From NCBI RefSeq assembly GCF_002441855.2, contig NZ_CP029487.1, forward strand, positions 124,001 to 188,000: DNA of 64,000 bases, written 5' to 3'. Shown here in pieces: positions 33,583 through 61,226 of this stretch. The stretch's first letter is position 1; every line of letters starts with the position of its first letter. Source of the DNA: Eubacterium maltosivorans. GTDB lineage: Bacteria; Bacillota; Clostridia; Eubacteriales; Eubacteriaceae. Made by a program: the position numbers and the translations under genes. The notes under the pieces were generated by a model, which did not search any database, was not told the DNA's origin, and saw only the letters and a list, made by a program, of their open reading frames with translations.

Positions 33583-33600
33583 GATAAAAACTGAATAACC

Positions 33601-33749
33601 TTTGAGGTGCTTAGCAATAAGAGAATAGGGAAACCGGTGCGAATCCGGTGCGAACCCATCACTGTAAACAGGGACAAAGCCTGAAAGCCACTGGAGCGAT
33701 CCGGGAAGGCAGGCCGCGGACGAGCTGTAAGCCAGGAGACCTGCCTTAA
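33601..33749 (+). promoter_or_regulatory. Cobalamin riboswitch aptamer
   Basis: The conserved elements are present in order: GAATAGGGAAACCGGTGCGA then ATCCGGTGCGAAC (P4/P5 and L5), CCATCACTGTAAACAG (P6 region), a P8-P9 segment, and the B12 box GCCAGGAGACCTGCC (33731-33745). The aptamer senses adenosylcobalamin-type ligands in nascent RNA. A terminator hairpin 70 bases further on is the expression platform, so bound cobalamin should shut off the importer genes. Confidence 0.95.
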
Positions 33750-33815
33750 AGAAGAAATGCGTGCAGGGGGATTATGCAGCGGCGTGTTTGAACAAACGAA
33801 ATCTCGGAAAATGGG

Positions 33816-33848
33816 ACCGATGAGCAGAGTGCTTATCGGTTTTTTTAT
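33816..33848 (+). terminator. Riboswitch-controlled terminator
   Basis: A 10-bp stem ACCGATGAGC / GCTTATCGGT with a loop AGAGT is followed by seven T. It lies between the aptamer and the importer's first gene. The rest of 33849-33936 is the leader with the ribosome binding site. Confidence 0.8.
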
Positions 33849-33936
33849 TTGTCTTAAAGTCAGGGAGCCTGTTTTATGGGAAGATGTTGATATCCGCGAG
33901 GATTTAACATAAATTTTATTTTTAATGGAGGGAAAA

Positions 33937-35007
33937 ATGAGAAAGAAAATCATTGCGCTTGTGTGCGCGCTGCTTCTGCTGGTTCCGGTATTTGCCGGCT
34001 GCAGCCAGAGCGGGGATTCAGCAAAGGCGGAGAGCATTACCGTCGTGGACGATACGGGCCGTGAGGTAACCATTCCCCAGCCCCTTGAAAAGGTGGTGGT
34101 GGCTAACCGCTACAATTCGGAGCTGATCCGTGGGATCGGCGCCATCGACAAGGTGGTGGCTGTGGATAAGAACACCGCTCAGGACCGTGTGTACTGGAGC
34201 CAGTTCGACCCGGATAATGTCATCGGCAAGGGCCAGAGCGAGCTGAACTATGAAAAGATCGCCGAGCTGGGCGCTCAGGTGCTCATCACCCCGGACAACG
34301 GAACCTGGGAGGAAGACATCAAAAAACTGGAGCCCTTCGGCATTCAGGTGGTGGTGGTATCTGGCTATAACAACGCTGAGCTGCCCAAGGAAATCGAGAT
34401 TTTAGGCAAGCTGTTCGGCAAGGAAAAGGAAGCCGAAAAGCTCACCAAATTTTACCAGGATAACATGGACATGGTGGCCGAAAAAATCAAGGATGTCAAA
34501 GGCACTAAAAAGGTGTACTGGGAATACGGCGACCCGAATACCACCTGTATACCAGGGACCAGCAATGACGGCTGGAACAGCATGCTTTTAAATGCCGGGG
34601 CTGTGAATATTTTTGGCGACCCCACCATTACCGGCAAGACCATTGACCCGGAAAAGATTCTGATGGAAGACCCGGACCTCATCATCAAAACCTCCTCTGG
34701 CCCGGCGCTCAAGAATACCGGCGTCTACACGCCGCCGACAGCGGAGGACTACAGCACCATCTCCAGCGAAATGCTGAGCCGTGCGGGCTGGTCCGATTTA
34801 AAGGCGGTCCAGAATGACAACTTCTATGTGACCACTGGCTTCTGCGCCGGCGGACTGGGCAAAATGATCGGGACGGTTTATACCGCGAAATGGTTATACC
34901 CTGAACAGATGAAGGATGTTGACCCTGACGCCATTTTTGACGAATGGATGGAAATTCAGGGGGTCGATCCGGTAGAAGGGCATGTTTTCCAGGTTAAGCA
35001 CCAATAG
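33937..35007 (+). CDS. Cobalamin-type ABC transporter substrate-binding lipoprotein
   Basis: The 356-residue product has a lipoprotein signal ('LVPVFAGCSQSG', Cys near 23) and a periplasmic-binding-protein type 2 fold for corrinoid or iron-chelate ligands ('ITVVDDTGREVTIPQPLEKV' near the start, 'KVYWEYGDPNTTC', 'DPDLIIKTSS'). ATG 33937 has GGAGGG 4 bases upstream; the earlier in-frame ATG at 33925 overlaps that site. The cobalamin riboswitch upstream points to corrinoid as ligand, while the sequence family alone would equally allow Fe(III)-siderophore. It is followed after 2 bp by the permease. Confidence 0.85.
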   Translation: MRKKIIALVCALLLLVPVFAGCSQSGDSAKAESITVVDDTGREVTIPQPLEKVVVANRYNSELIRGIGAIDKVVAVDKNTAQDRVYWSQFDPDNVIGKGQSELNYEKIAELGAQVLITPDNGTWEEDIKKLEPFGIQVVVVSGYNNAELPKEIEILGKLFGKEKEAEKLTKFYQDNMDMVAEKIKDVKGTKKVYWEYGDPNTTCIPGTSNDGWNSMLLNAGAVNIFGDPTITGKTIDPEKILMEDPDLIIKTSSGPALKNTGVYTPPTAEDYSTISSEMLSRAGWSDLKAVQNDNFYVTTGFCAGGLGKMIGTVYTAKWLYPEQMKDVDPDAIFDEWMEIQGVDPVEGHVFQVKHQ

Positions 35008-59253: not shown

Positions 59254-60735
59254 ATGTTTTTTGACAGAATTTTTGATATAAATGATAAGGATGAACGCGT
59301 CTATAAGCGCTACCTGAATGGAGAATGGACAGGCGGCAATGATGAGGGCCAGACCCTTGCCATCAAATCGCCCATCGACGGTTCTCTGGTGGGCAGGATA
59401 CCGGCCATGAGCAGAGACGAGGTGGACGAGGCCATTGCCAGCACAAAGGACAGCCTTCAGGCATGGGCCGAAATGCCCATCTATGAACGGGCCGAAATTT
59501 TCTATACCGCAGCGGACCTGTTTGAAAAGCATCTGGATGAGATGACAGAGGTGCTGGTGCGGGAAGTCGCAAAGGATCTGTCCTCAGCCCGCTCTGAAAT
59601 TGAGCGTACCGCGGACTTTTTGAGATACACTGCCGACGTGGGAAAAAGCATGGCCGGCGAGGCCATCAGCGGCGATAATTTTCCCGGCGGCACCCGCAAC
59701 AAGATTTCCTATGTAACGAGGGTGCCTCTTGGCACAGTTCTGGCCATTTCACCCTTTAACTATCCGGTAAATCTGGCCATGTCCAAAATTGCTCCGGCGC
59801 TTATCGGCGGCAACACGGTGATTTTAAAGCCCGCGACCCAGGGAGCCATCAGCTCGCTGTATCTGGTGGAAATCCTCAACCGGGCCGGCCTGCCAACCGG
59901 CGTGCTGAACACGGTAACCGGCCGTGGCAGTGAAATCGGAGATTATGTGGTCACGCACAAGGGAATTAACTTTATCAACTTTACGGGAAGCACCGAGGTG
60001 GGGCGCCATATCTCAAAAATATCCGAGATGGTGCCACTGCTTCTGGAGCTTGGCGGTAAGGACGCCGCAGTGGTTTTACCCGACGCGGATCTGGATTTTG
60101 CGGCCGATAACATTGTGTCCGGCGCCTTTTCCTATTCAGGACAGCGCTGTACGGCGGTCAAGCGGATTCTGGTACAGGAGGAAGTGGCAGACGAGCTGGC
60201 CGAAAAGCTGAAGGCGCGTGTCGAAAAGCTGAACGTCGGTGATCCCTGGAAAAACGCCGCGGTGGTTCCGCTTATTGATGATCAATCAGCGGATTTTGTC
60301 CAGGGACTGGTGGATGACGCGCTCGACAAAGGGGCAGAACTGCTGACCGGCAATAAACGTGAGAAAAACCTGTTTTACCCAACCCTTTTAGATCATGTGA
60401 CTAAAGACATGGAAATTGCCTGGGAAGAGCCCTTTGGCCCTGTTTTACCCATTATTCGGCTAAAGAGTGTGGAGGAAGCCATCGAGATCGCAAACGCCTC
60501 AGAATACGGCCTTCAGTCCTCTGTTTTTACCAATAATATCAATCAGGCCTTCTACATTGCCAACCACCTGGAGGTGGGGACCGTACAGATTAATAATAAA
60601 ACCGAGCGCGGCCCGGACCATTTCCCGTTTTTGGGTGTAAAAGCCTCAGGCATGGGCACCCAGGGTGTAAAATATTCCATCGAGGCCATGACAAGACCAA
60701 AGGCTATGGTGGTTAATATTCAGAAGATCGATTAA
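59254..60735 (+). CDS. gapN: NADP-dependent non-phosphorylating glyceraldehyde-3-phosphate dehydrogenase
   Basis: The 493-residue aldehyde dehydrogenase oxidises glyceraldehyde-3-phosphate directly to 3-phosphoglycerate, giving NADPH without ATP. GapN-type sequence: 'VYKRYLNGEWTGGNDEGQTL', 'PFNYPVNLAMSKIAPALIGG', catalytic Glu265 in 'LLELGGKDAAV' and Cys299 in 'SYSGQRCTAVKR', and the late 'NNKTERGPDHFPFLGVKASG' typical of GapN rather than of general ALDH. ATG 59254 follows AAAGGAGAG; an upstream in-frame GTG lies in the leader. It supplies biosynthetic NADPH by-passing the phosphorylating enzyme. Confidence 0.92.
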   Translation: MFFDRIFDINDKDERVYKRYLNGEWTGGNDEGQTLAIKSPIDGSLVGRIPAMSRDEVDEAIASTKDSLQAWAEMPIYERAEIFYTAADLFEKHLDEMTEVLVREVAKDLSSARSEIERTADFLRYTADVGKSMAGEAISGDNFPGGTRNKISYVTRVPLGTVLAISPFNYPVNLAMSKIAPALIGGNTVILKPATQGAISSLYLVEILNRAGLPTGVLNTVTGRGSEIGDYVVTHKGINFINFTGSTEVGRHISKISEMVPLLLELGGKDAAVVLPDADLDFAADNIVSGAFSYSGQRCTAVKRILVQEEVADELAEKLKARVEKLNVGDPWKNAAVVPLIDDQSADFVQGLVDDALDKGAELLTGNKREKNLFYPTLLDHVTKDMEIAWEEPFGPVLPIIRLKSVEEAIEIANASEYGLQSSVFTNNINQAFYIANHLEVGTVQINNKTERGPDHFPFLGVKASGMGTQGVKYSIEAMTRPKAMVVNIQKID

Positions 60736-60763: not shown

Positions 60764-60792
60764 TTGAAATTTTATCCGGATTTTGCTATAAT
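60764..60792 (+). promoter_or_regulatory. Promoter of compact riboswitch leader
   Basis: TTGAAA (60764-60769) and TATAAT (60787-60792) with 17-bp spacing; the predicted transcript starts at the 5' edge of the riboswitch. Confidence 0.85.
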
Positions 60793-60800
60793 AGCCTCAA

Positions 60801-60876
60801 GCAAAGCATACCAACGGAAGAATGCCCCGGGCAGACTGCTCCACCGCAACTGTGAAAGTCAGATACGTGTTTTGCC
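60801..60876 (+). promoter_or_regulatory. Compact variant cobalamin-type riboswitch
   Basis: The 3' half carries conserved cobalamin-aptamer sequence: CCGCAACTGTG (60844-60854) and a B12-box-like AGTCAGATACGTGTTTTGCC (60857-60876). GCAAAGCAT (60801-60809) can pair with GTGTTTTGC (60867-60875) as a 9-bp closing helix with two G-T pairs. The middle is reduced to GGAAGAATGCCCCGGGCAGA, where the usual L5 loop (GGTGAAAATCC type) is missing and only a small TGCC/GGCA helix remains. At about 76 nt it is far shorter than the 150-nt aptamer at 33601. A terminator at 60914 completes an OFF-type switch. The ligand may differ from adenosylcobalamin. Confidence 0.7.
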
Positions 60877-60913
60877 AGTTTCGCGTGGAAGCATCAAAGA
60901 GGTAAATTTTGAA

Positions 60914-60949
60914 GAATCTCCACCGAAAACAGGTGGAGGTTCTTTTTTT
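60914..60949 (+). terminator. Riboswitch-linked terminator
   Basis: An 11-bp stem GAATCTCCACC / GGTGGAGGTTC with one T-G pair, loop GAAAACA, and seven T lies 38 bases after the aptamer and before the small gene. Confidence 0.9.
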
Positions 60950-61009
60950 AGCCCTTCCGGCGGGCCGGAGCCGGGCTGTGAAAATATGAGATGATAGCAG
61001 GAGGTAAAC

Positions 61010-61177
61010 ATGGATTTTTACAAGGTAGTGACGGCCAATGACCGCAAGTCATTTGAAAAGCAGCTGAATGAAGCCCATGAGGAGGGCTACCATATCAATA
61101 AGGACGGCATACAGGTCAACACCAACGGGGTAGGTCTGAACCTGATCTATACGGCAGTCATGTGCCGGAAGTCCTGA
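61010..61177 (+). CDS. 55-residue protein under variant riboswitch (DUF1737-like)
   Basis: The ATG has AGGAGG 7 bases upstream and lies 60 bp past the riboswitch terminator. The 55-residue product ('MDFYKVVTANDRKSFEKQLN', 'EAHEEGYHINKDGIQVNTNG') vaguely resembles the DUF1737 strand-helix pattern, in which an aromatic-Lys-Val-Val/Ile-Thr start leads to a helix. No catalytic or metal motif is visible apart from a single Cys at the end. The riboswitch suggests a role in corrinoid biology, for example binding or trafficking, but that is inference. It is the only gene on the transcript before a terminator at 61196. Confidence 0.65.
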   Translation: MDFYKVVTANDRKSFEKQLNEAHEEGYHINKDGIQVNTNGVGLNLIYTAVMCRKS

Positions 61178-61195: not shown

Positions 61196-61226
61196 GAGCC
61201 CGGCACAGTTTTGTGCCGGGCTCTGA
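61196..61226. terminator. Bidirectional terminator of the recurrent family
   Basis: A 12-bp perfect stem GAGCCCGGCACA / TGTGCCGGGCTC with loop GTTT. The core CGGCACA(N)TGTGCCG is shared with the GATCGGC hairpins. It lies between the small rightward gene and the convergent aminotransferase homologue. Confidence 0.75.

Follow-up and report, generated by a model that had tools for sequence, protein, structure and literature searches.

A compact conserved leader with a cobalamin riboswitch core upstream of a 55-residue protein gene in Eubacterium maltosivorans

Few riboswitches are as widespread as those of the cobalamin type. Within the window analysed here, a stretch of 64,000 nucleotides from Eubacterium maltosivorans, the leader at 60799–60949 is a real, conserved element. 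It combines a cobalamin (corrinoid) riboswitch core with a kissing-loop hairpin and an intrinsic terminator, both downstream of that core. Judged from its sequence and that of its relatives, the element very probably works like a cobalamin riboswitch and descends from one. It is flanked by an aldehyde dehydrogenase gene, ending at 60735, and by the gene for a 55-residue protein. The initial annotation had proposed a compact cobalamin-type riboswitch that had lost L5; core motifs in the expected order, covariation, intermediate forms and B12-related genes support the compact riboswitch well; the loss of L5 has to be withdrawn.

Architecture of the leader

The features of the locus are as follows.

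60764–60792, + strand: sigma-70-type promoter, TTGAAA-17-TATAAT with extended −10, near-consensus; predicted start at about 60799, at the P1 5′ strand
60801–60807, + strand: P1 5′ strand GCAAAGC, extendable to 60809, pairing with 60869–60875; covariation GC/UA and CG/UA
60814–60816, + strand: P3 5′ strand ACG, pairing with 60866–60868 (CGU); CUG/CAG and UUG/CAG in relatives
60817–60822, + strand: J3/4, GAAGAA, directly after the P3 5′ strand
60823–60833, + strand: P4 hairpin UGCC-CCG-GGCA; covariation between UA and GC; the canonical L4 T-loop (GUGAAAAU) is absent
60837–60848, + strand: P5 (UG/CA) with L5; covariation between UA and AU
60839–60846, + strand: L5, CUCCACCG, complementary to the downstream L13
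60844–60854, + strand: motif CCGCAACTGTG, recognised by sequence
60850–60862, + strand: P6, CUG-UGAAAGU-CAG; the P6/P7–P12 extension is wholly absent
60857–60866, + strand: partial B12 box AGUCAGAUAC, made up of the P6 3′ strand, J6/3 (AUA) and the start of the P3 3′ strand
60866–60875, + strand: P3 3′ strand (60866–60868) and P1 3′ strand (60869–60875); covariation
60883–60892, + strand: P13 (GC/GC) with L13 GUGGA (60885–60889), which can pair with UCCAC of L5 (60840–60844) as a kissing loop
60911–60949, + strand: intrinsic terminator, 14-bp stem and U run; 5′ arm 60911–60924, 3′ arm 60932–60945
61000–61004, + strand: GGAGG, the ribosome-binding site for the regulated gene, recognised by sequence
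61010–61177, + strand: regulated gene, 55-residue DUF1737-like protein, found within the order in this genus only

The predicted transcript opens with the 5′ side of the closing helix and, barring readthrough, ends in the 14-bp terminator. The consensus promoter and the strong terminator of the initial annotation were both recovered, the latter by minimum free energy folding, though it is absent from the list of the pattern scanner. The L5 sequence CUCCACC recurs in the terminator's 5′ arm, and the 3′ arm is complementary to L5. The 9-bp closing helix proposed earlier (60801–60809/60867–60875) can form, but P1 as conserved comprises only seven of its pairs, the inner two being in competition with P3.

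The P4–P5 region had been described as collapsed to a tiny helix. This describes P4, a hairpin of 3–4 bp whose loop is CCG, CUG, UCU, UUCG or 6–9 nt long in the close homologues (type A, below), but not P5, which is retained with its L5, carries a compensatory pair and presents a loop complementary to L13. P6 is also short, at 3 bp, and its cap, UGAAAGU, is identical in all nine close homologues; we take this loop to resemble the T-loop pentamer (UGAAA). As to the conserved motifs claimed, the CCGCNACUGU core motif is in place at 60844–60853, invariant across close homologues, whereas only the first half of the B12 box (AGUCAG, 60857–60862) is present and its second half has been replaced. The pattern CCGCNACTGT followed by AGTCAG arose in none of 200,000 first-order shuffles. 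The folding z-score of the leader is −4.1, with the terminator as the main contributor, and −1.1 when the terminator is left out, so that the reality of the aptamer rests on conservation and covariation, not on folding energy.

Beyond the regulated gene, a hairpin of 12 pairs (nine G–C) at 61196–61223, with a T run on the − strand, separates the 55-residue protein gene from a convergent aminotransferase gene, and is possibly their shared terminator.

Homologues and covariation

We count nine close homologues (type A), spread over two Eubacterium genera, and five looser relatives from three genera. In a DNA search of 41 relatives, the leader precedes the same gene in each of the five genomes that represent the genus, and in another genus it is found in two copies per genome in two genomes, with different genes downstream. 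Named records with the leader belong to E. callanderi, a Eubacterium sp. MAG, E. aggregans and E. barkeri, and a scan of 84,980 species with a core-plus-L5 pattern yielded no organism beyond the named Eubacterium records. A covariance model (R1) returned the same nine strong matches among 40 genomes of the family, only known homologues among 391 genomes of the class, and no credible match among 398 genomes of the phylum; the viral contigs searched gave no match to the compact element. Because the filters of the large scans were strict and the pattern prescribes the L5 sequence, these searches may have overlooked distant relatives whose L5 differs. Matches to R1 or the pattern outside Eubacteriaceae (L087, L090–L092, L097, L108), together with L099, were rejected as chance occurrences in or beside coding sequence, a reading for which L087 alone was compared with its open reading frame list. 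Weak RF00174 matches elsewhere in the genome, considered as extra copies, proved to be coding or unrelated DNA. The compact form is apparently confined to Eubacteriaceae as far as these sequences go, and a literature search that covered few subscription journals found no description of it.

We aligned the nine related sequences (alignment A2) to a structure of P1, P3, P4, P5, P6, P13 and the L5–L13 pseudoknot. Pairing was found in 97.1% of cells compared with 90.7% after shuffling (reached by 0 of 500 shuffles), and sliding the partners by 1–3 columns reduced it to 29–47%. The covariation score was 0.238 compared with 0.124 (0 of 500), to be read with the caution that the nine sequences are related and the shuffles are not independent tests. 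Compensatory two-sided changes occur in P1, P3, P4, P5 and P13, the P5 pair alternating between UG/CA and AG/CU. P6 is invariant within the nine homologues and changes from CUG/CAG to CCG/CGG in the type C loci L106 and L107 described below; a P3–P4–P5–P6 four-way junction is thus present, with compensatory changes in P3, P4 and P5, and in P6 across types A and C. The initial annotation had made its case depend on covariation across homologous leaders, and the helices have that support. L5 and L13 are complementary (UCCAC/GUGGA) in all members checked, with one change from U–A to U–G; because these motifs are nearly invariant, the kissing loop is without covariation support, and its duplex energy is unexceptional in L016 and L017, where 123 and 225 of 500 shuffles were equally good.

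Relation to known cobalamin riboswitches

The searches with cobalamin family and class II models that the initial annotation had proposed came back empty at the leader: Rfam cobalamin families gave no match even at an E-value of 10, nor did the class II cobalamin and AdoCbl-variant models RF01689 and RF01482 up to the same value. Rfam detected in the window only the canonical cobalamin riboswitch at 33588–33762 (108.9 bits). Membership of RF00174 was defined by a covariance-model score of at least 31.5 bits, which the leader does not reach; the full B12 box, AGYCAGGAGACCUGCC, is represented by its first half only (AGUCAGAUACGUG in the window, AGUCAGGAACAGG in L016); and, judged from sequence, type A has no L4 T-loop and no P6 extension with which to form the L4–L6 T-loop interaction, a contact described as organising the junction of cobalamin riboswitches (PMC10907184). 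For these reasons we do not file the element as a member of RF00174 or of class II. The class IIb signature, which combines GGAA in J3/4 with UCU in J6/3 (PMC11260477), is present in its first part, J6/3 being AUA or GAA.

Comparison with canonical switches of the same genomes locates the losses. The canonical E. aggregans element L071 reads ACAG-CCCCCG-CUACUGUGA...AAAGUCAGGA and the compact L016 reads ACAG-CUCCACCG-CUACUGUGA-AAGUCAGGA, with the 66-nt gap of L071, that is everything between CUGUGA and AAGUCAG, closed. P2, the L4 T-loop and the entire P6/P7–P12 extension are lost, whereas P5 with L5, the CNACUGURA stretch, the P6 stem, AGUCAG and L13 are kept. The compact form therefore shares with class I RF00174 switches, such as that at 33588–33762, the P3–P4–P5–P6 order, CCGCNACUGU, AGUCAG, the L5–L13 kissing loop and the terminator platform, and differs from them, besides the three losses, in escaping the model, in an L5 two bases longer (CUCCACCG compared with CCCCCG) and in the altered second half of the B12 box. 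With class II (env8; RF01689/RF01482) and the M. tuberculosis ppe2 switch (PMC11260477) it has in common a small size, a reduced P6 extension and GGAA in J3/4. However, its L6 has 7 nt and caps a stem of 3 bp, its L4 has no T-loop, its J6/3 lacks UCU and, together with the core sequence, lies nearer class I, and class II models do not match it; moreover the ppe2 switch is translational (PMC11260477), whereas the compact leader has a terminator.

Two further forms, both from Eubacteriaceae, connect the compact form stepwise to cobalamin riboswitches. Type B (L048:4103–4240 (+), L094 and L095) has the same L5 and L13, a T-loop-like L4 (UGAAAAA) and a variable P6 hairpin; its P4 helix is fully paired in L095 (UGUG/CGCA), and Rfam gave no match at gathering scores in L047 and L048, the loci scanned. 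Type C (L106 and L107, with the reference motif at locus position 1501), from a further genus of the family, has a very short P6, CCG-GAAUCGGU-CGG, and a different L4.

Other cobalamin elements were noted in passing. The canonical riboswitch of the window (33588–35007 (+) with its genes) precedes, by eye, periplasmic-binding-protein-like and BtuC/FecCD-like permease genes. The same genome (G000:C1) holds shortened elements at 1283901–1284024 (−; 42.3 bits) and 2076372–2076501 (+; 45.9 bits), in both of which P7–P11 is reduced to a small GACGAAAGUC-type hairpin, and another at 2074538–2074692 (−) that scores 19.3 bits, below the cut-off. A canonical riboswitch at L048:2323–2507 (−; 103.3 bits) lies before two genes that are ThiC/BzaA-B-like by eye, which suggests B12 control of lower-ligand synthesis.

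Regulated genes, mechanism and alternatives

The 55-residue protein of the window resembles DUF1737 at a Pfam E-value of 0.00096, below the cut-off, and a fold search with its AlphaFold model (pLDDT 84) gave no significant match (best E 1.0). Elsewhere, type A leaders precede a glycyl-radical enzyme with its activase and a PduP-like aldehyde dehydrogenase, a gene group adjoining a divergent ABC transporter with a PF01497 binding protein. The best PDB match of the enzyme is 9rco, an unspecified glycyl radical protein, followed by the B12-independent glycerol and diol dehydratases (1r8w, 983 bits; 5i2a, 935 bits). An AdoCbl-type diol dehydratase (PF02286) is encoded elsewhere in the same genomes, so B12 repression of a B12-independent enzyme would make sense. 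Other type A leaders precede large surface proteins with DUF4430, a domain that occurs in the C-terminal region of transcobalamins (PMC4350170). The gene downstream of type B encodes an LRR_5 (BspA-type) protein, and those downstream of type C encode DUF4430 surface proteins; the complete protein carries ChW repeats, and one of the two DUF4430 matches falls just below the cut-off. The B12-independent-type dehydratase and the DUF4430 proteins fit B12 control. At two loci (L022:3110–3300 (+) and L023:3840–4040 (−)), a second conserved element lies 3′ of the compact switch and its terminator, before a DUF4430 gene; it has a canonical-looking P4 (GGUGAAAAUCC / CUGGUGCGAAUCCAG) and its own terminator, its L022 copy gave no cobalamin-family match in Rfam to an E-value of 10, and it is possibly a tandem cobalamin-like switch.

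The helices, conservation, alternative complementarities and gene contexts are best explained, in our judgement with good probability, by a minimal relative of the cobalamin riboswitches that is turned OFF by a bound corrinoid through P13/L13 and a Rho-independent terminator; from them we infer ligand, direction of regulation and switching. P1 would close the four-way P3–P4–P5–P6 junction, with P4 and P6 as tiny hairpins and P13/L13 and the terminator downstream. The ligand, a corrinoid and most likely a complete cobamide (adenosylcobalamin, for example), would bind at the junction and stabilise the kissing loop between L5 (UCCAC) and L13 (GUGGA), holding L13/P13 off the 5′ arm so that the terminator could form and transcription of the 55-residue protein gene would stop. 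When no ligand is bound, L13/P13 would pair with the 5′ arm, L5 with the 3′ arm, or both, and transcription would continue. The same antiterminator logic has been demonstrated for the Priestia megaterium metE platform, a repressing switch in which the kissing loop stabilises P13, whose 3′ side is otherwise paired with the 5′ arm of the terminator (PMC10653944). The compact form differs in that L5, L13 and both arms share a repeated or complementary CUCCAC/GUGGAG motif, which makes pairing of L5 with the 3′ arm a second possible antiterminator. The order in the window is a-a′-a-a′: L5 (CUCCACC), L13 (GUGGA), 5′ arm (CUCCACC) and 3′ arm (GGUGGAG). In L014 and L015, which have a different terminator, L13/P13 pairs with the 5′ arm as GGAAGC/GCUUCC (−17.4 and −17.9 kcal/mol; 0–1 of 500 shuffles). 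For the window and L013, pairing between L5 and the 3′ arm is the stronger alternative (−14.4 kcal/mol; 0–1 of 500), the window's L13:5′ arm pairing being unremarkable (97 of 500); neither pairing is exceptional in L016 and L017.

The initial annotation had taken the loss of L5 to suggest a change of ligand, to methyl- or aquo-cobalamin for instance. With L5 in place that argument has no basis, and altered ligand choice is not supported. A descendant that senses methyl- or hydroxocobalamin, a base-off or incomplete corrinoid, or a related compound would still agree with the changes in L4, the P6 extension, J3/4 (extended) and J6/3 (AUA or GAA, not GAGA), since peripheral elements are reported to mediate AdoCbl/MeCbl selectivity (PMC10907184, PMC11260477). 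We nevertheless regard it as unlikely: the B12-independent-type dehydratase and the DUF4430 surface proteins suit ordinary B12 sensing, many cobalamin riboswitches accept several corrinoids (PMC9600662), and the diol dehydratase context fits coenzyme B12 (AdoCbl), or corrinoids generally, at least as well. Tentatively, the element might be a corrinoid riboswitch that folds without L4–L6, using the UGAAAGU P6 loop and L5–L13 instead, possibly with a shifted corrinoid preference, and so form a structural subclass found only in Eubacteriaceae.

A degraded switch that has lost ligand binding altogether, with only promoter and terminator still acting, either to attenuate constitutively or to produce a small RNA of some 150 nt, is improbable. 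The L4–L6 contact and half of the B12 box are indeed gone, and leader plus terminator would by themselves yield a short RNA, but relics would not be so tightly conserved: covariation and an identical core extend over two genera and three different regulated genes, and complementarity to the terminator has been retained despite a change in terminator sequence. An unrelated protein- or tRNA-responsive attenuator with a chance likeness to the cobalamin core would account for the missing Rfam match; this reading is nearly excluded by core motifs that have the expected order and the expected helices, as in none of the 200,000 shuffles, and by the intermediate forms that tie the element to cobalamin riboswitches.

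If the corrinoid-responsive OFF switch favoured here is correct, the leader would be a natural switch that lacks both the L4 and L6 loops and has kept its kissing loop, and would show which parts are needed for corrinoid sensing; its small size would also make the compact form convenient for structural studies and design. Because family models miss such reduced forms, B12 regulons in acetogens are under-annotated, here with respect to the 55-residue protein, the B12-independent-type dehydratase and the B12-binding-like surface proteins.
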